The notes under the pieces were generated by a model. It saw nothing but the letters and a program-made list of their open reading frames with translations. It did not search any database and was not told the origin of the DNA. From positions 1,844,715-1,898,331 of the forward strand of contig FN649735.1 of assembly GCA_000310025.1 (NCBI GenBank): 53,617 nucleotides of DNA, written 5' to 3'. The translations under genes were made by a program, and so were the position numbers. Within the stretch, counting starts at the first letter, position 1. Every line of letters starts with the position of its first letter. Positions 16 through 20,569 of the stretch are shown in pieces. The DNA comes from Ectocarpus siliculosus (taxonomy: Eukaryota; Sar; Phaeophyceae; Ectocarpales; Ectocarpaceae).

Positions 16-3000
16 TCTTGTGCGCCCGCCGAACCAGGCGAGCGGTGGCCCTGCACGTGGCCGCCCTGGGTGAGGACTTCCTCCCATACTCGTCCGGCGG
101 CAAGCCGGTAAGGTTTGTTTCTGTTGTCAGCAGATGGTATCCATTGTAGTGTTGGTCGTCAGTATGATATGTGCTGTTACGCCACGTGTGGTGTTGGAGA
201 GATGAGCCGGGGGGCTAGCGGGGAGCCAGAGAGCTAAGACTGCTGTGAGAGGGCCGTCGTTGTGAGATTAAATCGGCATGGATGATACGGTCGAATTATT
301 CCACGTTTCGGTTCTGCAGTCTTGCACTCGCCACCTTCCCCTATCCCTCACAATCATGTGCCCGGCGCCCCCTACTAACCCCCCTTTGGGAAGGGGGTGG
401 TTAAGGTGCACCGGATGGTGTCGGCGGCGATCAGCTCGAGAGATAGACGCAACCCGAAGAAGGCGGCACGGGCACAGAGGGTGTACGAGGGATTAATGAA
501 TCTGACCCTGTTCGCGTCGCTGTTTCGTCTTCGGATGGGGAAATCTGAAGTGCAGGTGCAAGAAAGAGAAGGGAAGGTATCTAGAAGGTACAGTTGTGTG
601 CCCGTCTTTGTGTTTGCCGGTTTGGTTGCGGAGGCCTGCCTTTCGAAGCCGCGGGGCAGGCACCTGTGTCTGTGCGTACTCGTCTTGATTCTTGCTGTGA
701 GTACGAGGGGTTTCCTTTCGTGGTCTGGCACCAATCCCAACACCTGCAGCTGGTAAGTTTTTTCTCGTTTTTGCCATGGGTTTTCCGTGATTGGTTCTCT
801 GCCATTCTCTCTCGATCTGTGCTTGAAATCAAGGCGTGCCTTGTTGCGGTTCGCGAGTGACCTCGGGAGTCCGTATGCAAGCCATGTCATCTTCCCAATA
901 CGGTTTTACGAACGACACTTGGAAGCGGTGCCTTGTTTCTTTCTTTGCTACAGCACACTACGCACGCGCCGCCTCACCCGTACCTGTCGTACTTTGTTGT
1001 GGAAATGCCGATGTTCACAGGGCCATGGATTGTTTGCCGCAAGGGCAATCGCGGCCCAGGAGGTCGTCACCGAGTTCAAGGGCGACCTCATCGGCGCCGC
1101 TGAGGCACAGCAGCGAGTCGCGCACTACAACGACACGGGACTTTTTGTGAGAGCGTGTTTGTCGGCCGTACTCCGCGTACTTATGGGGTATTGTTTGTGT
1201 AGTGTATTAACTTCAGACGGTGAGGCAACGCCCGTACCCAGGGCGCTGTCGTGCTCAGAAAGGAGGAGTGGCAGCAGGGCTGCTGCACACAACAAAAGGG
1301 GGCCCCGGTGCATCATCACCGTACCCCTACCTAAAAGGTTCTACACCATCTGCGTCACACTTGTACGTACGGCTAACATATCCAAACCATGTCCGTAGAC
1401 CCACGAACACCCTCCCTGGTTCTTCACGCAAGTGACTAACCATCAGTGGGGCAAAAACACCACGGATACATCAATAAAATGCCAATACGGTGGTCGAGGG
1501 GAAACCCGGCGCCCGGGCAAAACCCCTCGAAAATAAACCCCATCCAACACAAACCATTGCTATCACGGCGGATCACAACGGCCGCACTTATCAGGAAGGC
1601 CAAAAGGGCGAAGACAAGAATGCGAGGCAAGCCTCCTACTCTTGCCAATGGGACACAGCCCGCGACAGTAATGCATCTTTCCCCGCATGGTATACATGAC
1701 CTTCCCCAAGCGCTAAAAAACTCCTACAGAAGCTCCGGCAAATTCGTCGGCTTTTTCCGGTGGTACTGCAGGTTGCTCTTGCTAAGAGCCTTGGTGACCA
1801 TGTCCGCATGTTGCTCCGACGTCGACACAAACTTGATCGAGATGTCACCCGACCTAAACAATCCACGAATGAAGTGGTACCGCACGTCGATGTGCTTGCT
1901 ACGCGCTGAGCTAAGGGGGTTCTGCACCAAGGCCATGGCCCCCTGATTGTCCTCAATCAAGCACCTGAATGCTACCGCCACTGGTCTCTGGGGCAATAAA
2001 CGAGAGCACTGCACGCACAAACAAAGCTTCTTTCACACCCTCTCCGGCAGCAATGTACTCTGCCTCCGAAGACGACAAAGATACGATAGCTTGCGTCTTG
2101 CTACCGTGGCTGATGACGGTTCCTCCAACCGTTGTTGCCACCCCTGACACCGAACGTCTATCCTCAGCGTCGGCGTAGCTAGCGTCCACGTACACCGCCA
2201 GCCCCAGCCCCGATCCCCGTTTATAGGTGATCCCGAGGTCCCTCGTCTCTTTGAGGTAGGCGAGGATCTTCCGTATCGCCTTCCAGTGCCTCTCGGCACG
2301 GGCATGGGCGTGGCGCGCTACCGCACGCACAGCGAACGAGATGTCCGGGCGCGAGAACGTCGACACCCACATCATGCTGCCGATGGCCTCCCTCACCGGC
2401 CACTCCCCTCCACTTTCGTCATCTCACTTCGGCCCTATGGGGGATTCTGTACTCAGCTCGGTCGACGCCAGGGCCCTCACGAAGGCGTCTGGAGAGTTGA
2501 GCACGAGGTCCTCCGCTCCCAGCAGGAAGTCCTCGGCCTCTAGGCGCGCGATGTTGGCCTCCTCCGCGCGCTCGCACAGCAGCGCTTGCACCGCCCTCGC
2601 CTCTAGCCCTTCCACCACGTCGACCACACGCGCGAGCATCCAGTGGGTGTACTCCTCCGTGCTGTTGATGGGCAGGGTGGGCAGCCCGGCCGCCGATGCA
2701 TGGCGGGCGAGCAGACCTTCGGCACTCGTTGACGACTCGTACCTCGTGTTCCGGCGAGGGTTCTCCCTGAGTCGGCGGCTGGTGAGTTCGGCCGGCTCGC
2801 CAAAGCGGGCGAGCCTCCGTTCCTCGGGCCCGCGGAGCGCCGGAATATCCGTGTCGCTGCCGCTGTCGCTGCCGCCACCGCTGCTGCTGCTGCTGCTGCT
2901 GCTGCGGCGGTCGTCCTCGCCGCCGCCCACAACGGCCATCCCGGTCGACGTGGTAGATGGGGCGACGCTCGCGCCCTCCCTGCTCGAGGGGGCGCCATCG

Positions 3001-6000
3001 CCAGCGTCGCCCGCGCCCGACTCCTGGGGCGCGGCCGGCGGCGCCGCCGGCGCATCGCGCGCGGGCGGCTCCGCGGGCCCCGGGTTTGCCGTCGTGTCAA
3101 GGTGGAAACCTCCATCCTCAGGTTCTCCCTCCGCCCTCCCTCCACCGTGGCATGACGCACCCCCCCCGCCCTCGTGCTCCCCAGTGGTGAGCTCCTCGTC
3201 CTCCTCTGCAATGGGAGGCAGCGGTGCTCGGGTTGACGTCCTGTTGGGGATGGGCTTGGATAGCCCCTTTGCCGTCGAGCATCCCATGCACTCCCGGAGC
3301 TGGCCCACCAGCGTCACCCCTTGCTGCTTCGCCGTGTTCTTCAGCAGCACCTCGTGGGAGTGGCCGTGCGCGCAGTGGAAGTCGTTGACGTCAACGGGGG
3401 TGCGGTTCGCTTTCGCGTTACCAGGAGCAATTATGGCACAGGCTAGTTCCCTACCTGACTCTATGCGGTGACCAGTCTGAACGAACAGGCCCCCCCATAG
3501 AGGGAAGTACACCGACTCCCCCCAACCAACGAACGCCTCCAACTCGTGCTCGTCTGCGGCTAAGCGGCCCTTGGTTTGTTTCAAGAGGGCTGTGAGGGAC
3601 ACGAGGTTGTAGTTGAGCTCCGGCACATGAGCGGCCCGTTTCAATAACAGGTCTGTGGTCCCAACGCGAGAACCGATGGTCACCCTCACGTCGCCATACC
3701 CTACGATGGCGAAGGCTTGCTTCCCTGCGGCGACACTCAAACGTCGATCGCACTCATGGTAGTTGTCGAACGCGTTAGCGCTCGGGAACATGTGGTTGGT
3801 TGCGCCGGTATCGGCCACAAACCTTTCCTGCCTGGCCTGCTCTACACCCCCTCGATCAACGACTCTGTTCCACTCGCCTGTGAAGTCGCGGACCACTAGC
3901 GCCTCCTCTGCCACGTCCAGTGCGGTGGCGTCCAAGACCGGCAGCTCCACCGCGAGCACCGCCTGCTCGGACGAGCACCTGCTCTTGTCGTGTCCGTAGC
4001 CCAGGCACTTCTCGCATCGCAGGGGCTCGGGCTTGGTACAGGCGGCCGCCTGGTGACCCTTCTCTCCGCACCGGAAGCAGCGGCCGTGCATGCTACTTGC
4101 ACCGCCGCCGCCGCCTCCGCCGCTGTTGCCACCACCACCGCCCCCACCGCCCTTGCTGCCACCCCCTTTCCCCTTCTGGCCGCCACCACCGCCGCCGCCA
4201 CCCTTGTTGCGGCCGCCGCTGCTGCGGCCGGGCGCTCCACCCCTGCTGTTACCGTCGCTCGCGAGGAAAGCATGCTCCGCCTTGTGCTGGCCCTTCGGGG
4301 CCTTCCTCCCCTCCGGGAGGCTCGCGTGCACCGTGCTTACGATCCTGACGATCTCGCCCCTGTCCATCTTTGTCGCCGTCTCCAACAGGAACTTCGCTTG
4401 TTGGTACTCGGGTGGAAGCGAGTCGACGAAGTGTGCGAGGACAAATGGTGCGTCAGCGTTGAGCCCCTTTTCGCGTAGGCGCATGTATATCTGCTCGAGC
4501 TTGCTTAGGTGCTCGATTGGATTGCTGCTGCTGTGTGCCGGGATCGAGAAGCGGAACATCTCTTTCATCAGGGCTTGTTTGGATCCCTGCGACTCGGGGT
4601 CGTAAACTTTTTCAAGCTCCGTGAGGACCCCCTTCGCCGTCACACAACTACTGACGACCGCTTCGTCAGTTTCTTTCACCACGGCGGTAGTGATGAAGTG
4701 GAACGCGGCGAGCCCACGTGCGACCTCGCTCCTAGTGTAGCGCAAGTCGTTGTAAAGTGTGGAGGTGGGCATGTTTGGGTCGCCCACGGGGGCATGTCTT
4801 TCAGTACTCCCGATGAATTGACCGTCTAGTTCCACGGTCTTAGCGGCCTGGATGAAAGCTTTTCGCCACGTGCTAAATCCGCTGCTGCGGCCCCCCTCAA
4901 GGCGAGGGGCCACCACGTTCACTTTCTTCGAGTGATTGAAGCTATCGATGTAATCACCGGTAACACGAGTTGCGGGTATCTCACCTGGGGGGTTTAACCC
5001 CCTCGCTTCCCCGCGGTCAGCTCCTACGCCAGGCCCCACTCTCGCTGGAACCCCAGGACTCGCTCCCGGTATGTTGTCCCAGCGGCTTTCCCGCGGGTGA
5101 TTTGGCCCATCACGGGCTGCTTCCCGGGAAAATGCCCCGCCGCCCTTTGACGGCAAGGACTCTCTCTGGCTTGGGACGGCAGCACCGCCGCCCCTACTGG
5201 CATCGCCCGCCACGGCGTCGCCAGGCTCCTTCCTCTTAAGCTCCATTATTATGCTCATCAGCTGCGATAACTGGCCCTCCAGTCTCGCAATCGCCGGGTC
5301 CTCGGCGTGTTGCTGTTGCATGGCTGAGGTCTCTTCCCCCAGCCCTTCGACCGAACCGCTGTCCGACACAGCCATCTCCCTGCTCTTTAGACAAAATAGA
5401 AGTTCATTTAGTTGTATCTCTTAGGCGCATGAGTTGTGCATACAAAAGCGCAAGAGACGGAAATGAAACAACGTGTTTTGCTGACGCGCCGGCGCTTCGC
5501 TTGAGAGTTTCGTGACGACACCTGTAGTCTCTATCTTGTAGATACTTCTGACGCCCAACACTTTCGCTCCCATGTTGTACTTTTTCTAACACTGGTGCGT
5601 GCTACACGCACACCTCAGCTGACGCCTCGAAAGCAAACCTCGTCCGTGCTTTGACGGCATGTGTGTAGGAAGCAGAGGAACGTGACACCCCCCGTTTTCA
5701 TACAATTTCAAGTCTAAGCCGGGTTGAAGTAGAGAGTTTCTTGCCCGTGCTTTATTTTGCTGTCGAAAACATGCTACGTTGGCAACAGCAGCAACCACAC
5801 CCAGCGAAAACCTGGACACAGCGTGGGTGGATGGTATGGTAGTATCGTGCCAAATCAGTTCGTTTGGGGTACGCCAATTGGTCAGTCAGCCCGCCACCCT
5901 TTCTCTCCGCTCCTGCCAACACCACCATTTCTTTCCCTTTCCTGGACTCCCCCGATCTCATCGCTGCCACAGGGATGCATAGTACAGGTCGGAAACGGCC

Positions 6001-6961: not shown

Positions 6962-9130
6962 GACGTTTTAGGGGGGGGAGAGGGGGGGGGGAAGGGCCTC
7001 TAGTGTGATGTGCATGTATGTTTGCATGCACATGTATGTTTTTGTTGCGCGGATTGTGTGGATGTACTACCGCAGAAGAACCTGTTGTGGAAACTCCAAT
7101 ATCATTTTGTACCTGTTGCAGAGTCTACGCGCCACCGCCGCCGTGGCCATGGCGTGGAAAAAACAATAAACATGCGATGACGTGTTTTGTTTTAGGATAT
7201 GTGCTGTATGTACAGATACTTTGATGTACGTGCGAACGCCGTTGGGCGCAAGAGGTTAGTCAGTGCTGAGCCAATGTCAGTTACAGGTTGGGAGTGGTTG
7301 CGTTGATTGATTGTTGTGCGGATCGACCTTCGCAATATAACAAATATCTCGACATTGCCGTTGAAAGGAAAACCGTATGTGCGGGAGAACGAGGGAATTC
7401 TGTTGCGTCAGAAGCAATTTAGCACACTGTTTTTTTGGGAATTTATCATGAACTGGTTGAGGACGTCCACGTGCAGCACATGTTCTCGATTCCCGTACGT
7501 ATCGTGGTTATAAAACGTGGCGAGAGTAGCTAAAAAATACCAGCAACTGTAGACTACAGTTTCATGTTTTTTTCTCGCCACCGGTAGGTTCTGCGAAGGT
7601 GTACCGATTCTGGTAAAAGTCAATCGACGGATACCCTGCGAATCGGGTCCTCCTTAACACTCTCCACCCACAGAATTTACCCTCAACTGGGAACCTCTTG
7701 TGGCCAGGACGGGTAATTCGATGGAAGTGTCACAAGGTTCTTTATAGGATCGATTCCAAGAGGTGTTCTCAGGACTGACACACATTGTGTCCATGGGAAA
7801 ATGTCCAAGTCAGGAGAAAAAACGTGCACCCAGGGAGATTCGAACCAGTATCCGGCTGACGCCATATTTAAAGGAGGGGAAGCCGTGGGTGGTAGCTTGC
7901 TCCTAGAGATAGATGAAGGTAGGTTCTGTCGTTGACACGCTTGTCCACGATCACGTAGAGATGAGAAAGTTGCTTGTTATTGCTGAGAGACGATCAGCAA
8001 GGGTCTGAGGTGAAGTGGGGATCCAACTTCACCTCAGGGGGGTACGCAGACTAGACAAAATCCTAAGAGGGTAGGTGTCTGAAGGGTATACCTCCTGAGA
8101 CCGACCCACATCCTATCAACAATAAGATGTACCCTATTTAAGCTAGCAGCCACACTCCTTAACACTAGCCCACCCTGAATATCATATATGCAGATTCTAT
8201 ACTCAAATCAATGCTCAACTCCTAAAAGCTACAACGAAGATTTTAGCTGACGATTGATGCTCATGAATCGAAGATATGACTCTTCACAAAACATCCAAAA
8301 AGGAGGGTGAGTTGTAGAAACATCCCGAATCAACCCCCACACCATCATTGAGACGAAAGATGGATGCGAACGGCCACGAGACAACACATCGACATCTCAA
8401 TGACAACGCTCCTATCAATGAAGGGATAAGGCCAAGAAAAATATGTAGTGCTGCACAGCACGCTATCCGCAACAGACGACGGCAAGAGAAATAAAGTCAA
8501 AACCTAAACGCCACACACCACTCTTTTACGCGCACCCGCGCGTATAACAATGGGAGGAATGAGGGCGACTACCCGAGAGAGCCCCAAAATACTGCAACAA
8601 AACTCAAAACCCAAGCAAATTTCCGAACGAATACGGCCTTTGATACTGGACGCGACGTAAAGGGGAAGATATCAACGCAACCAATCTAGGAAAGCGTCAA
8701 AGAAGGGCAGGAGAAATGAATGACAGGCGAACACACTGACAACAATTTCCAGCGTGTCAGAGAACTCAAACCGTATAGAGAGGCGGCCACGGCAAGACCT
8801 AATGAAAACCAAGAATGTAAAGCATGAATGATCAACGTCTGAGAAGCGATCTGACGAACTTGCCCTGGCTCGCTGGCAAAGCACAACACAGGAAGGCTCA
8901 AATAACACAGAAAAATCGCAGAGATACACACAACAACACAACGACTCAAGGGCTCGACGATGATGAAGGCGTCGCCGGCAGGTAGCGATGACGGAGACGA
9001 AGTGGAACGAAGTGTGGATGACGACGAATGTCCACGGGAGAAGACGACGCCACGGGATGGAAGCCCGAAGTAACAAGCCTAGATGACACTTCGGCGACAC
9101 GGTGGAGCTAAAAAAAAAAAAAAATGAGTT
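6962..9130. other. Region without a recognised gene; 3' flank of the SET gene and outer flank of the gypsy element
   Basis: No open frame here looks like a protein family. 6970-7200 is probably SET-gene 3' UTR. A perfect 12-bp stem hairpin lies at about 8003-8038. A TATA-like TTAAATA occurs on the minus strand near 8135. The part from about 8050 to 9130 is A-rich on the plus strand and could be the decayed 3' LTR of the gypsy element, but I found no matching copy on the other side of it. Confidence 0.5.
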
Positions 9131-9345
9131 GGCGAAAGGCGAACCAAGGGAAACACGAGAAACTCGGTGTTTGCCTGGTCAGAGGCGAACATACCGACGA
9201 AACTTGGGGAACTCGTTGTTGAAGTGTTCAGAGGCAAACAACACCGACGAAACTTGGGGAACTCTTTTTCCAAGTATTCAGAGGCAAAGAACACCGACGA
9301 AACTTGGGGAACTCATTTTCCAAGTGTTCAGAGGCAAACCACACG
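9131..9345. repeat. 50-bp tandem repeat, about 4 units
   Basis: The core GACGAAACTTGGGGAACTC recurs at exactly 50-base spacing (9196, 9246 and 9296), each time followed by a variant of TTTTCCAAGTGTTCAGAGGC. A more degenerate unit precedes at 9131-9180 and a partial one follows at 9331-9345. In the orientation of the gypsy element this lies directly downstream of the pol stop, so it belongs to its 3' untranslated region or LTR edge. Confidence 0.85.
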
Positions 9346-9365
9346 GAGAAAACAAGAAGGAAAAG

Positions 9366-10370
9366 CTAGGAAGAGATATTGGGAACAGCCGACGGTAAGG
9401 AGTCAGTAATGGGAGGAGTGCGATCCCGGGCGTCGCCCAAAGGGCGCGAGCGATGTTTTTCTAAACACCACGATCCACAGACGGCGTCCAAGGCGGTGGA
9501 GTAGAGGTGCGCAGGCAGAGGGAGAACGCTGGGGCCCGGGTCATCCAGAAATCGAACGATGTACGAGCCGTCCTGATGAGCACCAATACGTCCGGTCCAC
9601 CATAATCCGTCGCGGGCCTTGTACCACAGCCGCGCTCCTACTGGAAGGGGCGAAATGCTGAAGCGACGGAGCCAAGTCACGTGAAGCACAAGGTCAGCCC
9701 CAGGAGGCAAATAGCGTTCGCCACGATTCCGGGCGAGCTCCCGTTGTGCCGCGCGTGTCCGAGCCACTCGATACGTGCGGTTACCCTGCTTGCTTTGGCA
9801 GACCTCTCGAGACCAGTACAAGAGGATGTGTCGACGGAATTGATCGAGGTCGGACTCCCGTTCCCAAGAAGGAGTAGTCAGGCCTAGCCAATGCGTCTGG
9901 TACAGGACAGCGAGAACGCCGCTACGGCCCCGCACCAATTGGTGTCCCGAAATGTAGTCGACCTCGAGGCGCCCGACAGGCACCGACACATCATCTGCGG
10001 TGACGTGAAACGGTGGACATTTATCGCCGAAAGAGTGCAGGACATAACGCGAAAGCTCAGCGGGTAGAGATTGAGGCAGGTCGTCCGTCTCGTATGGATT
10101 GCGACAGGGCTTGCAACGAAGGACAGATACGCGACATCGAGCAGCTGGGCCGGAAAGATCCGAAGGCAGGTCCAGGTAGAGGAGTTTACGCGCCAACGGG
10201 CTTCCATCTGGGGTGGCGTTGGCCGAAGCGGGACCCACCGCAAGAACTTTGTAAGGCCCCGTCCAGGAAAGCGCGAATTTGGCCTTGAGCACCTGTTGAT
10301 CCGTGTCCTTCCGCACACCCTGTCGAATTGTAGCAGCCGTGTTGTAGACCCAAGCCCACCCCGCCAACAG
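9366..10370 (-). CDS. pol: Gypsy integrase C-terminal part: GPY/F, chromodomain and Tudor-like module
   Basis: This frame continues Pol after the frame changes. It opens with WAWVYNTAATIRQGV and the GPY/F signature WTGPYKVLAVGP. A chromodomain follows at about 9977-9800 (LEVDYISGHQLVRG, LYQTHWLGL, PSWERESDLDQF, ILLYW), the part of chromovirus integrases that directs insertion to modified chromatin. After an Arg-rich spacer comes a second barrel-like module at about 9650-9440 (VGARLWYKARDGLWWTGRI, YIVRFLDDPGP, GSWCLEKH), which resembles a Tudor/PWWP-type reader. The frame ends at a stop at 9366. The GPY/F and chromodomain calls are firm; the Tudor-like call is by pattern only. Confidence 0.75.
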   Translation of the reverse strand: MLAGWAWVYNTAATIRQGVRKDTDQQVLKAKFALSWTGPYKVLAVGPASANATPDGSPLARKLLYLDLPSDLSGPAARCRVSVLRCKPCRNPYETDDLPQSLPAELSRYVLHSFGDKCPPFHVTADDVSVPVGRLEVDYISGHQLVRGRSGVLAVLYQTHWLGLTTPSWERESDLDQFRRHILLYWSREVCQSKQGNRTYRVARTRAAQRELARNRGERYLPPGADLVLHVTWLRRFSISPLPVGARLWYKARDGLWWTGRIGAHQDGSYIVRFLDDPGPSVLPLPAHLYSTALDAVCGSWCLEKHRSRPLGDARDRTPPITDSLPSAVPNISS

Positions 10371-13300
10371 TAAATTGCGGGAGCTTGTGGATGGCGTCCC
10401 AGCAGGGATGAATTACGGCGTTCGACTCGCGAGATCTTCAGGGCGTTGTACTCACGGACCAGGTCGTAGGCCCGGCGCTGACGATCGACAGCCAAGTTGC
10501 AGTACTCGAGTTGGTCACGGGCTAAGCTTTGATGACCACCTACCGTTGGATGATCGAAGACCGAAAGCGGAAGCCGCGGAATGCGTCCGATATGGATCTC
10601 GTTCGGCGCCAATCCAGTCGACTGGTTCACGGAATTGTTGTAGGCAAATTCGACGTGCGGGAGATGTACGTCCCAATCGTTTTGCTGTTCGTTGACGACT
10701 ACCGCAAGCATCTGAGCCATCGTGTGATTGACGCGTTCCGTGCCGCCGTTGGTTTGCGGGTGGTAGGAGCTGGTGGTGACTTTCTTGATTTTCATCACCT
10801 CGTAGATCGCCATGGAGAGCTTCGAGCAGAAATGCAGTCCGTTGTCCGACAATAACGTAGTCGGACATCCCCACTTGGTCATGTACTGGTTGACGAAGAT
10901 GTGAGCCGTCCCTTTCGCCGTAAATTCCGCCGCTGTAACCGCGAACATGTCGGCTCTCCGGCTGAAACGGTCTGTGAACAACAAAATGTAGGAGTTGCCC
11001 TTGGCAGTCACGGGCAGGGGTCCGAAGAAGTCGACGTCGACGACCGTACCAGGCCCCTGTGGCAATGGCATAGCGATGACGGGCCACCGAGCGGTTTGAC
11101 GCGAAGTCTTGCGAGCTTGACACACCAAACACGCTCGAAGCCACCAACGCACGGAACGATCCAGACCAATCCACCAGTAAAAACGCTCAAGCAGACGTTG
11201 TGTACGATGAACACCGAGATGGAAGGACGCGGCGGTATGGCAGGCATGAAGGACCCACGGACGCATCAGCATGGGCACGTAGACACGGGGCACACCAGTA
11301 TCCGGTAGACGAGTGGTCCTGCCGCCAGAGCGCCCGATCGGCGATGGCGCCGGTTTATGTACGAGGAGGGTGACGTTCTCATCGGTCGTGTGCAGCCTGG
11401 TTTTCGCCGCCAACGCAAGGACATCGTCCAACCGAGGGGAGCGGAGCGGGGCACTAAGGGTGAACAAGTCAGAAGGGGGGGGGGAGGGAGAGCCACGAGA
11501 CAGAAAGCGCATAGCCACCACGCATTCGCTCTCCCGCTGTTGTTCCCTAGCCCAGTCCACAGTGCCGAAGCTCTGAACGCAAGCTCGCAAATGTGAGGGG
11601 TCCAAGTCAGTCGGCTCCAACCCAGAGACAAGCGATCCCACGGAAGAGGCTGGAGAACGAGGGGCCTCAACGAGTGGTGAAGTTGCAGACCGCGGTGTCA
11701 CCTCAGGAGGAGGCATTGGGCGGGGCGAAGTCCCAGGCGAAACCTGGATAGAGGGCAAAACCGAGGATGCAGCGCGCGCCGATGCCGGCGAAGGCACCTG
11801 TGGCGCAGAGGCAGTCGACGAAAACGCCGACGTTGGCGTCGCAGATGACGGCAGGGGACGCGTGCCGGTCCGGATGGTCTTGTTTGTCGAGCGGGACCTG
11901 CTAGGACGACGGGCAGTGGACGATGCCCGAGGGACGATGGTAGCCCGCGGCTGGCGTCCGAAATAGGTGGGACCGGTGACGGTGCCTCCAGAAGCAGCGG
12001 TGGTCTTGGCCCGAGTTCGTGAAGAAATGAGCGGTCCCCGCTCCGGAAGCGAAGACAGGACGTGCACATATCTATTCGCCAAAGACGCGGCCGGAGACAT
12101 TCCGCGGGACGTAGCCGGAGCCAAACAGGAAACAGGCACCGGAGACGCGAAAACATGTGAGACCACGAAGACTCCCGAAGACCTCCGAGAATCTTGATAA
12201 TCAATCGGTGAGTCCGATCGAACATCCAGCAGGCGCGGGTGATGACGGCGGAAATCCCCAAAATCGGATGGCTGTAGCGCTGGGGGTGAAAAGACACCCG
12301 CCGAGCAGGGAGGGCGGAGCCCACCCAAACCGACCTCCGGCGTAGACGACGAGTGATAGTTGAGTCCACAAGCCCGAATGAGGAAGACACCAGCGTGATC
12401 GACACCATCAATGCAATCGGGGCCGGTTGTGTCCGTGTCTTGTGCTGGAAAAGGCAGCCGCGAAAGGAAATCCGCGTTGCCGTTTGCCGAACCTTTCCGA
12501 TATTTCAGGGTGTAGGTGAAGTTGGACAGGAATTCGAGCCATCGTTGTACCCTGGCGTTGTGTTCTCCAACCTTTCCAATGCTCTCTAAGGCTTTGTGAT
12601 CTGAATAGATGATGAACTTGGTTGACCACAAATAGCCCCGAAGACGCTTAATGGCCCAAACAATGCCACCAGCTTCCAGATCCAGAACAGTCCAGTTCCG
12701 CTCCGCCGGAAGAGTAGCGCGGCTGATGTACACAATGGGTCTCACCGAGCCATCGAGTTGTTCTTGTTCCAGGGAGGCTCCAAAGCCGTCAATGCACGCG
12801 TCGGAGCACAAACGGAGAGGACGGCTGTTGTCCTCGACCGCAGCCCAATCCGGGAAGACCAAAATCGGGGGACGCGCGAGTTCGCTCAACAACGTTTTGA
12901 CAACCTTGACCATGCCCGGGGTGTACTTGAAGGGGACGCCTTGTTTGAGAAGAGAGTTGAGAGGCCGCACCTTGGTGGCGAGATTCTGAAGGAATTTCCG
13001 GTAGTAGCTGAGACCACCGAGGAGGCTCCTAAGCTGCTTAACATTCGTCGGCGGCGGCATGTGCGTGAGCGCCCTAACCTTGACGCCATCAGGGCTAACC
13101 CCAGCCGGGGAGATGGTGTGACCGAGGAAATTGGCGTGGGTGGCGCCGACACGAGCCTTCCCTGGAGACAGCTTGAGGTTGTACTGGCGCAGCCGTTTGA
13201 AAAACTCGATCATGTTGAGCACGTGTCCCAGAGGTTCCTCATCGAAACAGATAACATCATCCAGATAGGCAAGCACACGCTCCAGACCGTGCACCACTCT

Positions 13301-16300
13301 GTTGATGACCTTGACGAACCAAGACGGGCTGGCGTTGGCTCCTTGCGGCATCCGAAGCCATTCGAACAACTGCGTGGGAGTGCAAAAGGCGGTGAGCGGG
13401 ACAGTGTCTTCGTCACAAACGATCTGGTGGAAGGCCGAATTGAGATCGAAGATGGAGAACACTTTCCCGGTGTAGAGAGAATCCAAGATACCGTCCACCC
13501 GAGGGAGAGGTTGTCCATCCAAGTCCACCAGGGCGTTGAATCGTTTGTAGTTGACGGTGATGCGAACCGATCCGTCCTTCTTGGGGATGACGACCAGGGG
13601 AGAAGCCCAGGGAGAAGTGGAATGCTGAATGAGCCCTGCCGCCAAATACTGGTCCAAGACGGCATCCACTTTCTTCTGCATTAACGGGTTAATACGATAC
13701 GGGCGTGATGCGACGGGCTTCGTCCCTGCGGGGACAGAAAGAGTGAATGGCATGACGGTGCAGGAACCAAAATCGGTTTTCGAAGTAGAGAACACGTCGG
13801 AATACTCAACAAGGGCGTCGGCCAAACGATCAATAGCCTCCGGTGTCCATCCCGGGTTGTGTAGATCGAAAGCGATGTCGTGCATATGTGCGGGCAGCCT
13901 AGTCCACAATCGCAGAAAACTGGAGCGCTGGGCCTCGGAGAAGCGGTCAAGCAGTTCTTGTGGAGGCGGCTTCGGAGGAGGCGGGGCGGAGGCTGGGTCC
14001 GGAGAGCGGCGAGTCCCGGACTTGGGGCCAACGGCGTTGACCCGATGCGGTGATGTAGAGGACGGGGGGGCGGTGGGAGTCGAAGATGGAGCCGCCTTCA
14101 GGGTTTCTACCGGTACTCGTAATAGCGGTGCAGCAGACACGCCAATAACGTCGCCCGGCTCCAATTCGGCACAACCTGCAAGGGGAATACGCTGAAGACC
14201 ATTGGAAACAAATGCATCGGGGGACGAAAGTGCACCCACTTCAGGTCGGAACGATACGAGATATTCGCCGATCAGCGCAGGCATGCCCGAAGAACGGACG
14301 AGGTCCACCTCAACAAGGGCCGGCTCCGGCCCCAAGGAAATGCCCGAGCTCCCTGCATATTTGAGGTGAAACGAAGAGGCAGGAGCGTCGTCGTGCGTAG
14401 CGTAAACACACGCGCCAGCGGTGAAACGTGGAGAGAGCGTGAGCTCGCCCATAACCCGGCCGTCCGGTCCAGGGTGGGGGAGGGTGGTGAACACTCGAGA
14501 GTTGAACCGCATCCAGCTATCGCGACCCAGAAGCACGGCGTGCCCCATGGCGGCATCTGGAACAACGCAGGCCCAGACCGCCAACGAAGCGGTAGCTCGA
14601 GCTCCATGAAGAAAATTAACGGTGAGACGAACTGACCGAGTGGTCACAAGGGCGGGTCCATCACCAAACCCACCCCAACGACGAGAGGGCGAAACACGAA
14701 CGCTGCCAGCTGTCAAGGCTCCAGCAGCTATCATGGCGGTGACCACGGAGTCGGACACAAAAGACGCAGGAGATCCAGAGTCCAGCAGCGCCACTCGCGC
14801 CAGTTGAGAAGTGGCTGTAGGTCCTCCATGCAGCAGGACCCGGGTGGTGTAAGAGTCCGAGTCCAACAGGAGCGTGCCGCCGACCAGGTCGGGCCCGTGT
14901 TCCAGAAGAGGAGGTTGGTCTGCACAAGCGGAGGTCGAGGCCACCAGATGAACACCAGGAGCATGGTCCCCCGGAGCGTCCAAATGGAGACAGGCTGGGT
15001 CTTCACCCCGGTCCTCCCGTGACGACGAACCGGCCGCGGTAGCAACCTCGTGGATGCGTCGACGGCCATGTGGAGGAGGCTGCGAAATGGAAGGTGCGGG
15101 AGAAGTGGAGGCGGGGAGAGCTTCGCCAGACAGGGGATGATCACGCAAAAGGCGCCGAACTTCCATCAAAGCTTTTCCCAACAAGTTTTTACCGCTAGAC
15201 GCCCACTTGGATGAAACGCTAGCCTCCGGAAAGCATGCAGACATGCCGATACCCCAAACACGATCGAAGGGGCTGGCTTCCGCAAGGAGGCGGGTACCCG
15301 TCTCCAGTAGATGTTGTTTCATGTCGCGGTTTTGAGCGAATTTGGCATACGACCCCGTAAGCACGATCTCTTCTCGACGACGCTCCCATTCAGCATAGTC
15401 AAAAGGACGGACGTTACGACCCAAGTACTTGTGTGTCTTAGGATCTGGTGCAGCCATGATTTTGTCATACGACGTCATATCCCCAAACAACTTCGCTTTT
15501 TCAGACATCATAAATTGCTCACCACATGAATAACGTACCCCCAGTACGTCAAAAGCCGAGGGTGTCCATTGCGAGAACACAGACGGAGGTTTCCAGAAGA
15601 GGAGGACGTCATCCGAAGCGTACTCGCATTTGTCATCAAACGGCGGAGCCGGTGCAGGGCGCAGAGGCAAAGAGCGGGCACCAGGCACGGGCGGGGGTGG
15701 GTCAAGCGGACGGGTCCTCATCTCCGACGGGGAGGACCCAGAAAGCGAGGGAGGAGCGGGCGAAGTCGCTCCGGTCCATGATCCGGAGGGCGGCCTACGG
15801 GCGGCGGCTCCGGCGAGGTCAATGTTAGCAGAGGCCATTCGGCTATTAGAGACCTGTTCGTTAAGAGAAGTCTTTCCTGCGGCAGACGGATATGTGTGAA
15901 TGGACGCAGGGCGCTCTGGACTACTCCCCCGTGACAAAGGAGCCGAACCTTCCACAGAACGGTGGGCACTACCATCCGATCCCGATGGCAGTGGTGCAGT
16001 CAGCACGTTGTGGGCAGCAGAGGAAGACGCATTCGTATCAGGTGCTGCCACACGGGGGCAGCGGACGGTCGAAGACAACGAAAGCTGCGAAAGAGAAGGA
16101 GAATCGACGGGGTCCCCGACGAGTGTAGAAGAAGGCTCGTGTGCTATCCGAGAAGAGGCCCGGCTGACAATACCAGGAGAGTCTTGGCGAACAGTAGTAG
16201 ACGAGGTTCTTGTTCCTTCTGTAACCCGAGACGGCGAGGTGAGCAGGGGTGAACCACTCGACGTCTTACCTCCCTGTCGCCCACACCACAAAGGTTGTGC

Positions 16301-16498
16301 CGGAGTGGGTTTGTCATGTCCAATACCAGCAGACGATGAGGTGGGTGACGAGGAGGCGGGCCGAGAAACTAGATGCGATTTGGGGGCGTGGGGAGTATCC
16401 AAAGAAGTAGGCTGTACACGAACATCCTGGGAGACTCCAAAAGGGTGCACGGTGGTTGCTAGTGACGGTAGTACCGGCTGAACTCCGCCATCGGCATG
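10355..16498 (-). CDS. pol: Gypsy Pol polyprotein: NADAR-protease-RT-RNase H-integrase
   Basis: The frame continues from Gag after one UGA (16499-16501) and stays open for about 2,000 residues. Numbering from the codon after the UGA: a Ser/Pro-rich linker to about 285; a NADAR domain at about 287-452; an aspartic protease with LLDSGSPASF (DSG) at about 573 and HAVLLGRDSW further on; reverse transcriptase with YLDD at about 1077; RNase H at about 1228-1350 (LCSDAC, DLEAGG, YSDHKAL, GNADFLSRLP); and integrase with an HHCC finger at about 1752-1790 (CHTAASFHLGVH...CLVC) and catalytic Asp/Asp/Glu in DVDFFGPLP, LLSDNG and GGTERVNH. All catalytic residues I can check are present. The natural frame is lost twice between about 10440 and 10355, before the GPY/F module. 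Beyond about 10430 the original frame runs on out of register to 9884. Confidence 0.9.
15145..15639 (-). other. NADAR (YbiA-like, former DUF1768) domain within gypsy Pol
   Basis: About 165 residues match the NADAR pattern from end to end: LLFWKPPSVFSQWTPSAF (a strand followed by the F-S-x-W/F segment), YSCGEQFMMSEKAKLFGD (usually SSEHYFQAQKA..F.D), KIMAAPDPKTHKYLGR, WERRREEIVLTGSYAKF with QN following, HLLETGTRLLAEASPFDR, VWGIG, and NLLGKALMEVRRLLRD at the end. Known NADAR proteins are N-glycosidases: YbiA cleaves riboflavin intermediates, and NADAR antitoxins remove ADP-ribose from guanine in DNA. The conserved glutamate, tryptophan and aspartate are visible. The domain is in frame with the polyprotein and has no stops. 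Serine/proline-rich linkers on both sides suggest a separately folding module that may be released by the protease (inference). Confidence 0.88.
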
Positions 16499-16501
16499 TC
16501 A
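16496..16501 (-). promoter_or_regulatory. In-frame UGA between gag and pol, candidate readthrough site
   Basis: Gag ends with codons for Lys-Gly-Lys-Lys and then UGA followed by CAU. The same frame then remains open through all of pol. A single stop in register is the arrangement used by retroviruses that make Gag-Pol by stop suppression. UGA followed by C is the leakiest context known in eukaryotes. A recent point mutation in a continuous gag-pol frame is the alternative. Confidence 0.55.
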
Positions 16502-19500
16502 TTTCTTACCCTTCCAGCCCCTCTTGGCCGAAGTGGAAGTCTCCGATGAGGATTCTGTGTGCGAGGACTGTTTCATGTCCGATGTGTCAGATGAACGGCG
16601 GGCGCGTCCCGAGGAGTGAGCACGGGGTGGGTTGCGTCCTGTAGGTCGTCTATACGAGGTCATGCGCTTTTTCCACCGACTCCAAAGTGTGGGATCTTTT
16701 TCCATGCAGAGCTTGATATCATTGTTAAGCAGGCCTGTGGCGTTAATGAACCCACGAGTACAAGATTTGAAGGAGTGGTCTTCCCCTAAGCAGTTGAGGC
16801 ACTTGCCCTTGTACAGCCGAAGCGCGTTGCGGCGGTCTTCAGCCGAGACCAAGGGGGTGAACAATGGCGGATCATTCTTGGTTAGAGCCATCTCACTAGC
16901 GACGTTGTATACCTCTGGAAAGTGTCCTTGCAGCGGCCAGTCGCTGTAGTGCAACAGAAAAGGGTCTCGATCATCATAAGGTAGAGGGTCAACACTCATC
17001 ACCGCAGCCGAAGAACCTGGACTCCACGAAGGGGTCACCGATGACCGCAACGCCGAAGAAGCTACAGCACGCGAAACAGCAGACGAACTCCGAGCATTCG
17101 TGGAAGACACCGAAAAAAAATCGTCACCATGTACCGCCGGCGTGTGCGCGAATGCCCGCTTGTCCAACACATCCCACATATCGTCCAAACACGAAGCATG
17201 TCGCCCAAAAGGGGCTTCCATGGAGAGCTGCTCATCCTTGTACACCTGTCCAGACACTACGGGAAACTGCTTCAACATGGAGTCTCGAACAGCTATCTGC
17301 ACTTGTGCATCCGAAGGCTTGAACGCGTGATGAGAAACCATGACAGTCATGGCCAGAGCCTTATAGCGACGAATGTATTCTCCGTACGTCTCGCCGGTGG
17401 ACACGCCAAAACTACGAAGGCGATCGATCCCCGAGCTCTTGTCTTGAGTGTCCCAGGCGGCCGCCAATTTCTGGATAAAGAACGCGTACGTCGAGGGCCC
17501 GGCCGGTTCCTTGCGCAGATGGTTTTCTACCTGTTGGAAAGTGGCATCAAGAAATTCCAGCGTGGCACGGTTGGTGGTTTGACCTTCAACGACAGCAGCA
17601 CGAACACGTTTGCGCAACAACGGAAGCCATCCTGCGACCCAGGTGGAGGAAGCGAAAGTCTGCTTGCGTTTGACGTCGCTTTTGTTGAGGATCTCGGTGA
17701 CCACGCCCTTGCAGCTAGACGCGAAACGAGCAAATTCATCAGGATCAGAACCAAGGGGCAAGCGTGTGACACTATCAAGTTGTTCCGGCTTCAGCTTGTC
17801 CATCTTGTCTTGAATGCGGATGGTGTCGGCCTCCGCTGCAGCGGCGTCCGCAGCGTCCAAAGCCTCCTGCCTCGTCCTCGCCCCCGTGGAAGACAAAGGC
17901 AAGCTAGCATCATCCTGAGGCAACGGCGATGTCGCGTTGGCCGGTGACGCCATGACGTGGCCGGTCGCCGGGCGAGGATCGATCAGGATAGACGTACGCG
18001 GGAGGGGGGGGGGCACCACCAAAGGCTGTTGTAGCAGAGCTGGGGCGGTCGACGCTGATGACACCACCAAAGGCTGTTGCGGCAGAGCTGGGGCGGCCGG
18101 CGCTGATGACGATGACACTGCCGTGGCCCTGGCAGCTGCCTCATCGTGAACCTCGTACCCTGAACGAACTCCCGAGGAACTCGAAGCGTGGTCTTGCAAT
18201 GGTGCCAAATGCGCCCGTGACGAAAAGGGTGGGGCAGAAGGTGGCATGCTAGGGGCGTTCGAGGGCACAGAAGGTGGTACATTCGAGTCGGCAGCAGCAT
18301 CCACAACTTGGCCAGGCGTTTGCGCGCGCAGGAGAGTGAGCACTTGTTCCAACAGCATTTCAGTACGGGAAGCCGAAGTCGAGGCTTGTGATGCAGCATT
18401 GCGTGGTGAACCAACACGTTCGTCCAAAAGCAAGGAAGATGTGGGCTGATCTACCACGGTGTGTGTAGGGGCATGGCTTTTAACCGCGGCGGAATGTTCA
18501 CGAAGTTGCATGTTGGCAAGTTTGAACGCCAAAGTAGACACGGGCGGCGGTCCTACATCAGCGGGGGGGAGCAAAACCGGTGGCGAAGAACAGAGTGAAC
18601 CATCTTCTGAGGCAGTCTTACGTTCCCCCAACAGCCCAGAACTACGAAAATCACACCGATCATACTGCACTTGCCTGCGACCCCGACCTGACTTCCGTCG
18701 CCCTTTGCCCCCTCGACCGCTGTCCGAGCTGGTCGCCCTGCCGTTGCCCCCGCTCCTCGTCGGGCTCCGGCTGCGGCTACGCCTACGCGAAGGCGTGTTG
18801 CTCCCGCGGCGGTCGCTGCTCCGGCTGCGACCACGCCGAGACGAAGGTGCGTGACGTGGCTGGCGGTCGGTGCTCCGGCTCCGGCTCCGGCTCTCGCGGT
18901 GTCGACGCTTGGACGAAGATTCCGCGTACCCCCGCCCGCCATCTTCAACACCCGGCCCTCGCGAAGTGCGCTCGGCCGTCCCGCTCTTGGCCGTGGGGGC
19001 TTGATCACCCCAACGGCTCCTCCGGCTGGTGGAGGCAGGAGCCGCCGACAGACTGTAGTCCTTGGTCCCTCCGGAACCATGCGCACGGCTTTCAGAATCC
19101 TGCTGTGGGAGCTGCAGATCATGCTGAAAATCGTCGTTGGTTGCAGTACGAGCTAGCGGCAACCGAATTCCCCCATTGTGCACCACCACCGCGGTTCCCT
19201 GGGGACCCTCGGTGAAGGAAGCCCTACGGAGAGCAGACACTAACCGAAACACACTCTGTCGTAAGGACGGTTCTAGCTGGTCGAGGAACGGACTCGATAC
19301 AAGATGTGCAAAACCAAGGTCTGTATAAGAGTCAGGACAGCGGTCACGCACGATGTGTTGGAGGCCAGCCCACGCAAAAAGGGCACTAGTTCGGTCAGCA
19401 TCATGGAAGGTGATCACATCTGTGGGCGTGGAAAGGGGGCGGGACAGGAACGCTGTGTCTTCTGCGTGAAACCTGTACTCCTCGGCTTCGTCGTCTGACG

Positions 19501-19657
19501 CGCCGTCGGCATCCCCGGCCGGCCCACCCAGCGTCACAGAAAACTGGGGAGCAGCAGCCACTTCCGGTGCCGCCTGGGGCGTGGGAGGGGGCACGACACG
19601 ACGACGGGCGGGTCGCGAAATATATCTCCATCTGCAACCTCGCCGTGCTTGATCCAT
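16499..19657 (-). CDS. gag: Gypsy Gag polyprotein with RS-rich segment and CCHC knuckle
   Basis: This is the structural protein of the retroelement, about 1052 residues. I chose the ATG at 19657 (MDQARRGCRWRYIS); the open frame extends only ten codons further upstream, with no other ATG. Residues about 250-325 are rich in Arg-Ser dipeptides (for example SRSRSRS and RRRSRSRSPTRS), like RS domains of splicing factors. Proline/serine linkers follow. A helical capsid-like region lies around residues 620-850, with DEFARFASSCKGVV near its start. A zinc knuckle of the form C-x2-C-x4-H-x4-C (CLNCLGEDHSFKSC) lies near residue 955. The C-terminus is basic. The stop is UGA, followed in the same frame by pol. 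Gag is much longer than the usual 300-500 residues. Assignment is secure from the knuckle and the position before pol; the capsid fold is inferred. Confidence 0.85.
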   Translation of the reverse strand: MDQARRGCRWRYISRPARRRVVPPPTPQAAPEVAAAPQFSVTLGGPAGDADGASDDEAEEYRFHAEDTAFLSRPLSTPTDVITFHDADRTSALFAWAGLQHIVRDRCPDSYTDLGFAHLVSSPFLDQLEPSLRQSVFRLVSALRRASFTEGPQGTAVVVHNGGIRLPLARTATNDDFQHDLQLPQQDSESRAHGSGGTKDYSLSAAPASTSRRSRWGDQAPTAKSGTAERTSRGPGVEDGGRGYAESSSKRRHRESRSRSRSTDRQPRHAPSSRRGRSRSSDRRGSNTPSRRRSRSRSPTRSGGNGRATSSDSGRGGKGRRKSGRGRRQVQYDRCDFRSSGLLGERKTASEDGSLCSSPPVLLPPADVGPPPVSTLAFKLANMQLREHSAAVKSHAPTHTVVDQPTSSLLLDERVGSPRNAASQASTSASRTEMLLEQVLTLLRAQTPGQVVDAAADSNVPPSVPSNAPSMPPSAPPFSSRAHLAPLQDHASSSSGVRSGYEVHDEAAARATAVSSSSAPAAPALPQQPLVVSSASTAPALLQQPLVVPPPLPRTSILIDPRPATGHVMASPANATSPLPQDDASLPLSSTGARTRQEALDAADAAAAEADTIRIQDKMDKLKPEQLDSVTRLPLGSDPDEFARFASSCKGVVTEILNKSDVKRKQTFASSTWVAGWLPLLRKRVRAAVVEGQTTNRATLEFLDATFQQVENHLRKEPAGPSTYAFFIQKLAAAWDTQDKSSGIDRLRSFGVSTGETYGEYIRRYKALAMTVMVSHHAFKPSDAQVQIAVRDSMLKQFPVVSGQVYKDEQLSMEAPFGRHASCLDDMWDVLDKRAFAHTPAVHGDDFFSVSSTNARSSSAVSRAVASSALRSSVTPSWSPGSSAAVMSVDPLPYDDRDPFLLHYSDWPLQGHFPEVYNVASEMALTKNDPPLFTPLVSAEDRRNALRLYKGKCLNCLGEDHSFKSCTRGFINATGLLNNDIKLCMEKDPTLWSRWKKRMTSYRRPTGRNPPRAHSSGRARRSSDTSDMKQSSHTESSSETSTSAKRGWKGKK
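18690..18910 (-). other. RS-rich segment of Gag
   Basis: The segment is dense in Arg-Ser and Arg-Arg-Ser dipeptides, alternating with Gly-rich stretches, and resembles RS domains that are phosphorylated by SR-protein kinases. In Gag it lies upstream of the capsid-like part and could bind RNA or splicing-type factors (inference). Confidence 0.7.
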
Positions 19658-19745
19658 TGAGATGTACACACCAGTGTCAGACAAGAAACGAGCGGATGTA
19701 TGTGTGGACGAGGAGGGGGCAATGGTGGGACCGATCCAATGTCAA

Positions 19746-19760
19746 CCGGAATCGTTGCCA
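19746..19760 (-). other. Possible primer-binding site of the gypsy element
   Basis: Upstream of gag the minus strand reads TGGCAACGATTCCGG, the shape expected for a site complementary to a tRNA 3' end (CCA). Three bases before it is a possible LTR end (GATACA). I could not match it to a particular tRNA or find the partner LTR, so this is a weak call. Confidence 0.25.
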
Positions 19761-20569
19761 TCATGTATCACACACACACTCATCTATTTTAGCGTGCATG
19801 CTACAGGCCATGCAGCCACTTCGTAGTCTACTCTGCACCGCGTCATCGGAGCCTTTGATGGCAATCAAACACCAAACAGGAAGTTCGTTGTGGCCTTCTC
19901 TGATCATCGCTCGGACGTACGTGTAGTCGCACAACACCCCAGTCGGTCGTGAAAAATCTCTTAGTCCCCGGTTTCTTCTGACGCGTCCACAGAACTCGTG
20001 CCTCTCACAGAGCTTCTGATTCTGCCCCGAGGCTTGGTCTGGGAGTACTACAGGTAGGGCCCGCAGTTGAGAAAAATTCTGTCCAGAAACAACAAGGCTC
20101 AACTTCTTGCGAGAAACATGAAAAAAGGGCTAAGCAACACCGCTCGATCTCGGCCACAAGATAAAGAAACGTCCAAAAAGGGAACATGATCGATCGTGCG
20201 ATACCCCAAGACAAAACGAAAAGGGGGTAGAAGCGGGGGGCGCGCGTCCAATAAGAAACGTCCCACTGCTGCTGCGGCTGCCATGCTCCCACCCCCTACA
20301 CCTAGCTAACAACAACAGCAGCCTGGAATTTTTTGGTAATTTAGGGGCGGAGAGTGGATATTTTCGCGGCGCCACCCCCGCGCCCCAGCGCCGCCCTGGT
20401 GGGCTGCACTACCCACTGCTGCTGTACTGCTGTACTACCACAACCCCCAATGTTCCCCACGCCGAGCTGTTGGTTTAATGCTGCATGAAGGCTTGGTGTG
20501 TTGTTGTATTCTTCGCCAGAAATAAGACAACAAGAGCAATCAGCAGAATGCGACAGCCCAAAGAAATAA
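19761..20569. other. Region without a gene; likely 5' leader or LTR of the gypsy element
   Basis: No coding frame of note. If the primer-binding site is real, the 5' LTR would start at 19764 with TGTATCACACACAC. The stretch contains a short CA repeat, an A-rich part at 20100-20230 and CTG/CAG-like runs near 20270 and 20410. I found no second copy near 8000-9100. Confidence 0.35.

Follow-up and report, generated by a model that had tools for sequence, protein, structure and literature searches.

A NADAR domain at the front of Pol in a Ty3/gypsy lineage of the brown alga Ectocarpus siliculosus, apparently akin to a NADAR gene of the alga itself

In a stretch of 53,617 nucleotides from the genome of Ectocarpus siliculosus (the whole analysed stretch is hereafter called the window), the Pol polyprotein of a Ty3/gypsy retrotransposon carries a NADAR domain at its front. 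The domain has kept its active-site residues, has evolved under mostly purifying selection and has been inherited together with the reverse transcriptase (RT) through a gypsy lineage; these features, its position in Pol and its kinship with a NADAR gene of the alga are directly supported by the data. As an explanation, it is proposed that this host-related NADAR serves as a particle-borne guanine ADP-ribose hydrolase. Taken as a whole, including the activity, substrate, packaging, readthrough, and direction of capture that we infer, this explanation is tentative, with a probability of about 0.4. The fusion of NADAR with gypsy elements is already known from a paper of 2025 (PMC12477816), which, in the part available to us, describes NADAR-bearing Gypsy elements of Ectocarpus sp. 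7 (such as Gypsy-12_Ec32) with NADAR in all families of one lineage. Relative to that part, the present analysis adds the kinship with a host gene, a survey of active-site residues, an estimate of selection, and the TGA-C junction between gag and pol.

The NADAR domain is encoded at window positions 15143..15598 on the minus strand (Pol residues 301-452), and its membership of the superfamily is indicated by a full-length profile match above the cut-off: the Pfam family PF08719 scored 154.3 bits (E 4.4e-45, cut-off 35.1) over profile positions 2-163 of 163. TIGR02464 of NCBIfam was also matched (137.6 bits, cut-off 73.7), and the nearest solved relative was PDB 8bau (E 2.7e-17, 66 bits). Only the minus strand encodes the domain, and the plus-strand translation of 15145-15639 is interrupted by stops. 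The initial annotation, which gave no strand, had placed a NADAR domain at about 15145-15639 inside a gypsy polyprotein and had named the lack of a significant profile match in Pol as a reason to abandon the idea. The profile search bears the proposal out, and the domain in the window is confirmed as real, open, and complete, apparently an intact enzyme domain.

In the NADAR protein of the oomycete Phytophthora nicotianae, 13 residues have been reported to contact ADP-ribose (available part of PMC11543638). Based on alignment to 8bau, 11 of the 13 are identical in the window (E43, K50, K75, G78, R79, V81, W89, R93, E125, D130, and W133), among them E43 and K50, which are conserved across the superfamily; the two differences (Y84 to F and D86 to Y) fall at positions that are also variable in standalone NADARs. 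E43, K50, and E125 correspond to E327, K334, and E407 of Pol. All 28 other copies that were aligned have the same 11 residues without variation; these copies had been chosen by score or by a long open frame, a choice biased towards intact active sites. Fourteen other gypsy Pols share nine of the 11 without exception; of the remaining two, E43 is found in 13 Pols and replaced by D in one, and R93 is found in ten and changed in four; the equivalents of E125 and K50 are kept in all 28 copies and all 14 of these Pols. It has been reported that position 125 is Glu in the YbiA subfamily, Asp in BC4488, and His in phage types (available part of PMC11543638). Since a Glu (E407) stands at this position in Pol, the window domain is, judged by alignment, of the YbiA type, and the early suggestion of a YbiA-like NADAR with its active-site residues in place holds at that level.

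Pol is an open reading frame of 2204 codons (9884..16498, minus strand, as are all parts of the element) in the frame of gag. Its order of protease, RT, RNase H, and integrase is that of Ty3/gypsy elements (Metaviridae), in which the protease was recognized solely from its motif and from alignment of the copies with one another. This motif, LLDSGSP, was found by eye at 14768..14788 (starting at Pol residue 571) without a Pfam match, and the region around it could be aligned in 28 of 28 element copies. Over their Pfam cut-offs are RVT_1 (13112..13588, residues 971-1129), RNase H (12518..12832, residues 1223-1327), and the H2C2 zinc domain of the integrase (11105..11278, residues 1741-1798); the integrase core (rve; 10757..11056, residues 1815-1914) falls slightly below (29.1 bits, cut-off 32.6). 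The portion of gag common to other family copies spans 16502..19620, lacks its 5' end, and contains a zinc knuckle (CX2CX4HX4C, seen by eye at 16760..16801), and no family was matched in a Pfam search of the window gag. The place first assigned to NADAR, between the gag stop and the aspartic protease, is correct, as the domain lies at the front of Pol with a TGA at 16499-16501 before it and LLDSGSP after it.

The description of the window copy as an otherwise complete gypsy element has to be given up. The copy is 5'-truncated and broken, with its NADAR intact, because similarity to the family ends at about 19620, only a single LTR can be inferred, and the integrase changes frame. Family similarity ends at window 19619-19620 in seven of the ten copies compared, although their fetched stretches continue; two of the remaining three diverge before this point and one reaches a contig end. 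The gag reading frame extends to 19741, past 19620 in sequence that is not part of the element, and a search with window 19600-20048 matched only the window itself among the best 40 of 369 candidates in the genome. The C-terminal part of the integrase (9381..10367) was located by tblastn with the C-terminus of protein P0006 in another frame than the rest of Pol; the change takes place between 10400 (frame -1 up to this point) and 10367 (frame -3 from here on), and this part is in a single frame in the fetched portion of six of ten other family copies. Repeat sequence of the family continues 3' of Pol as far as 7592, an edge that recurs in many copies among the best 40 candidates per search and that would be the outer edge of a 3' LTR, putatively at about 7592..8620 with its inner edge a rough guess. 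No second LTR was detected in the window by self-blastn. The lack of two flanking LTRs concerns the window copy only, whose 5' end is lost at 19620; it reflects the truncation and leaves the assignment to Ty3/gypsy unchanged.

Several other features were observed along the way. Elsewhere in the genome, G000:C3:3300507-3302506 aligned to window 8000-10000 at 100% identity, and a NADAR match lies about 5 kb from it (C3:3307650); this locus is either a very recent relative of the window copy or a duplication. The window also contains a copia-type gag with the N-terminal part of its Pol (2424-5375, minus strand; Pol_BBD over the cut-off, Retrotran_gag_2 and a zinc knuckle slightly below), an inverted repeat (28932-29241 and 29724-30029) whose arms of about 310 bases are 92% identical and which is perhaps a DNA transposon, and a piece of a protein kinase (31026-31532, plus strand; PF00069, E 1.2e-18) that may be a host exon.

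At the scale of the whole genome (189 Mb in 492 contigs), at least 150 NADAR matches were found (230 candidates, of which 150 were scored). Besides the window, 30 copies were examined, comprising the top-scoring ones (L001-L008), those with open frames of at least 1709 codons (L009-L028), and two (L035 and L036) from a search with the algal protein P0018. A gypsy protease lies downstream of NADAR in all 30, and both RT and integrase are present in all 20 long stretches examined. Damage within NADAR was seen in three copies of lower score (L038-L040, 0.8 kb each): two have the middle of the domain in another frame, and the third loses the match in mid-domain. The copies were sorted into four groups, of which A is window-like (97-99% in NADAR), and B, C, and D stand at 55-59% in NADAR and 64-72% over full-length RT. 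L001 and L008 were counted with D, yet L001 forms a separate branch in the NADAR trees, and there are therefore at least five families. The nearest named proteins to the window element are from Ectocarpus sp. CCAP 1310/34 (92 and 89%), and PF08719 is present in 15 of the best 120 RT relatives (of 337). Together with the number of genomic matches, the last count rules out a one-off chimera. Absence of the fusion from all related elements had been named at the outset as a possible refutation; instead, the fusion is present through a gypsy lineage.

The history of this lineage was traced using the RT. In a tree of 43 rows, 30 Pols form one lineage (100/100). Based on blastp of 37 Pols, NADAR occurs in 16 of 29 Pols of the lineage (two of them partial) and in none of eight outside it. 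Among the 13 lineage Pols without NADAR, the protease or RT match is preceded by no more than 39 residues in ten, and three (P0134, P0148, and P0153) possess upstream sequence from which NADAR is absent. When the comparison is limited to lineage Pols whose protease match is complete and preceded by 200 residues or more, NADAR is found in 11 of 12; the one without it, P0148, branches off deepest within the lineage in the RT tree, where the split above it is weak (84/65). Moreover, NADAR distances are strongly correlated with RT distances (r 0.922, n=17), a value reached in 0 of 2000 shuffles. Because of this distribution and this correlation, the data fit one gain of NADAR near the base of the lineage followed by long co-inheritance. 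In the neighbouring RT group, the gypsy Pols P0158 and P0159 are listed with PF00145 (C-5 DNA methylase) and PF00385 (chromodomain), the methylase being another enzyme acquired by a related element.

A dN/dS test over the domain had been suggested from the beginning. Within group A, the ratio was 0.175 for NADAR (55 pairs), 0.199 for RT, and 0.124 for the protease; the within-family ratio of 0.81 for NADAR in group C is based on almost no synonymous change, and that of 2.9 for the protease in group D on very little. Between groups, synonymous differences in NADAR are saturated (median pS 0.79-0.89) and median pN is 0.22-0.34, compared with 0.21-0.26 in RT and 0.28-0.39 in the protease. Selection on NADAR is thus mostly purifying, and the constraint on it is about that on the protease and weaker than that on RT. 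The retained active site and a pN well under the saturated pS speak against the possibility that the domain is a decayed passenger.

With regard to the origin of the domain, standalone NADARs are present in brown algae, namely P0018 in Ectocarpus fasciculatus and P0020 in Pylaiella littoralis. Searching the window's genome with P0018 revealed a host NADAR gene on another contig, in four pieces that are 70-96% identical to P0018 (L037 2301-531, minus strand). The gene is split inside the NADAR domain, and its first piece holds an N-terminal cysteine- and histidine-bearing stretch before NADAR; the stretch of P0018 and P0020 matching this part gave no Pfam match. No match to gypsy protease, RT, or integrase was detected in 3.2 kb of L037 around the gene. 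The element copies with long frames match P0018 only from residue 29, past the cysteine-rich stretch.

In a NADAR tree of 70 rows, 22 element rows and the two host NADARs are on one side of a branch supported at 99/96.8, opposite 46 bacterial, fungal, and unnamed sequences, and in a second tree, with 22 viral sequences added and P0142 restored, the branch uniting elements and host received 96/95.8. P0015 was counted as an element row by its grouping with P0006, not by gypsy context; P0010, P0011, P0012, P0014, and P0016 (the last two being Ectocarpus proteins at 92% to the query) were excluded from both of these trees and P0142 from the 70-row tree, and the oomycete NADAR was in none of the trees. 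In a first quick tree, the long-branch protein P0011 had fallen inside the element group. As to the proteins themselves, P0010 is very long and combines NADAR with a DprA-type domain, and P0011, also very long, combines it with FHA and a sub-threshold zf-AN1. In P0012 (1301 aa), the NADAR match (E 1.2e-35) stands ahead of a region with a YLDD motif and a weak similarity to RT_RNaseH (14.3 bits, cut-off 24.8); the protein gave no significant match to the gypsy RT profile built here and lay outside the element group in the first tree; by eye we take it to resemble a DIRS/Ngaro-type retroelement, and it is perhaps another independent NADAR capture.

These trees favour a close relationship, at the level of sequence, between the NADAR of the elements and the alga's own NADAR gene. 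As to the direction of transfer, capture of a spliced host transcript is most likely the simpler one, since breaks between pieces of the host gene fall within its NADAR domain. The reverse course, in which the host gene was domesticated from an element, draws on the weak support for the elements to the exclusion of the host gene (64/30.9 in the 70-row tree; with viral sequences, not on one side in the best tree, together in 4% of 200 bootstrap trees, and p-AU 0.308, no rejection, when held together), so that the host gene may nest within the elements. It is nevertheless rather unlikely, given the pieces inside the domain and the N-terminal cysteine-rich stretch of the host gene, after which alone the element copies match P0018. 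Direct horizontal transfer from bacteria was suggested in the 2025 paper, where, in the part available, blastp outside Ectocarpus gave almost only bacteria (PMC12477816), and many standalone matches here are indeed bacterial or metagenomic (the best named one, from Nannocystis, at 51%, and unnamed metagenomic ones at up to 58%); against it stand P0018 and P0020, the intron-containing gene in the host genome, and the union of element and host NADARs at 99/96.8 and 96/95.8, which includes two host sequences and is compatible with the entire group having come from bacteria at a deeper level, and a direct transfer appears improbable. A viral source was also rejected: NADAR identities reached at most 49% in the best 80 of 524 viral_contigs loci, and all 22 of these in the tree fell opposite the branch of elements and host. 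Queries with gypsy protease, RT, and integrase found no match in the fetched flanks of the same 80 loci, and the 730 phage records matching NADAR were all below 60%.

The expression of the domain depends on the gag-pol junction. Gag and pol are in one frame and are separated by a single TGA (16499..16501) whose next base is C, a candidate readthrough stop. TGA followed by C is a leaky stop context. Counting the window, 19 of 29 copies have it at the junction specific to their family (nine of 11 in group A, six of eight in C, and four of eight in D); in the other ten, a different stop comes first in nine, both B copies among them, and one stretch is too short. Upstream of the TGA, the open gag frame, which is that of pol, measures 1080 codons in the window; among the eight other A copies that have the junction it measures 546-1132 codons in seven and 57 in one, and in four C and D copies it measures 711-915 codons, the others being interrupted sooner. 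RNA structure 3' of the TGA did not exceed that of shuffled sequences in two stretches (z 0.32 and -0.22). Pol would probably be made by occasional readthrough of this stop.

In the mechanism that we propose, an old and vertically inherited Ty3/gypsy lineage that is known in brown algae would have acquired NADAR in its Pol, most likely through a spliced host mRNA, and occasional readthrough of TGA-C would give a Gag-Pol with NADAR as the first domain of Pol. NADAR would then be carried into the particle with Pol, where the adjacent protease could free it, and the packaged domain, acting as an N-glycosidase, would most likely free guanines in the genomic RNA or the single-stranded cDNA of the element from ADP-ribose. 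Such removal may keep the template copyable or undo a host mark, in a manner similar to the betaretroviral dUTPase, which guards the DNA against uracil. The choice of guanine-linked ADP-ribose as the putative substrate is made because the relative in 8bau, an oomycete NADAR of YbiA type, hydrolyses it (available part of PMC11543638) and because the dUTPase occupies the same slot. Counting against this function, de-ADP-ribosylation activity alone has been reported to give no protection in cells (available part of PMC11125620). With respect to host chemistry, four short PARP matches (two with an internal stop) and one partial Macro match in the genome give a hint of ADP-ribose metabolism. Also counting against the proposed function, DarT, the partner in DarT-NADAR toxin-antitoxin pairs, gave no match in the genome in a search whose control set matched in one of 14.

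Another possibility is that the domain acts on small NAD- or ADP-ribose-derived molecules, such as immune signals or by-products of RNA repair, and not on nucleic acid. NADARs, above all those of phages, have been proposed to process soluble ADP-ribose derivatives (PMC9503650), and bacterial and plant members have been suggested to act on riboflavin intermediates (PMC11125620), as far as the available parts of these papers go. However, the domain is fixed in Pol and is not a free protein, and the NADARs of eukaryotic RNA viruses are proposed to target macromolecular ADP-ribosylation (available part of PMC9503650); a small-molecule substrate is unlikely on balance, although a serious contender. 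A purely non-catalytic role, in which NADAR binds ADP-ribosylated chromatin or nucleic acid and aids targeting or assembly, would accord with the chromatin readers that such families putatively carry at the opposite end of Pol (Gypsy-12_Ec32; available part of PMC12477816), but the E125 and K50 equivalents, retained by all copies and Pols surveyed above, would not be required for binding alone, and we regard such a role as very unlikely.

If the packaged domain does act on guanines, a wider and doubtful speculation is that brown algae ADP-ribosylate guanine in the RNA or cDNA of retroelements and that this gypsy lineage counters the modification with a captured host eraser packed into its particles. 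Such an arms race, if true, would make NADAR the eukaryotic retroelement counterpart of phage antitoxin mimics. Little is understood of how nucleic acids are ADP-ribosylated outside bacteria, and a selected eraser borne on a polyprotein may offer a natural probe of the modification of retroelement nucleic acids in eukaryotes. In addition, host and element NADARs form a paired comparison, and their kinship alters the published guess on the origin of the domain.

Several known systems resemble the window element in part. The NADAR antitoxins of DarT-NADAR pairs (DarTG1) belong to the same superfamily, but they are of the BC4488 type with a catalytic Asp (available part of PMC11543638), whereas the window domain is of YbiA type with Glu in a genome without a DarT match. 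Tx1 LINEs of Crassostrea gigas are also retrotransposons that carry NADAR, but they are non-LTR elements in which the domain is divergent and located in ORF1, as known here from the available text of PMC12477816. The Gypsy lineage of Ectocarpus sp. 7 in the same paper is the closest published parallel; no difference in architecture from the window element was seen in a comparison with the description in the available part, and the two studies differ in that bacterial transfer is suggested there (PMC12477816) and that the domain falls together with a host gene in the present NADAR tree. The Phytophthora nicotianae NADAR (8bau) is, like the window domain, a stramenopile member of the YbiA subfamily with 11 of 13 ADP-ribose contacts identical, from which the window departs by F for Y84 and Y for D86 (66 bits). 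To our knowledge, that protein is not part of a retroelement. The betaretroviral dUTPase is unrelated to NADAR in fold and chemistry and is reached by frameshifting in a retrovirus, whereas the window element is a Ty3/gypsy element that probably uses stop readthrough. The two are nevertheless alike as small nucleotide-handling enzymes that precede the protease in the polyprotein of a retroelement, the dUTPase being N-terminal of Pro and preventing the incorporation of uracil (available part of PMC1224870).
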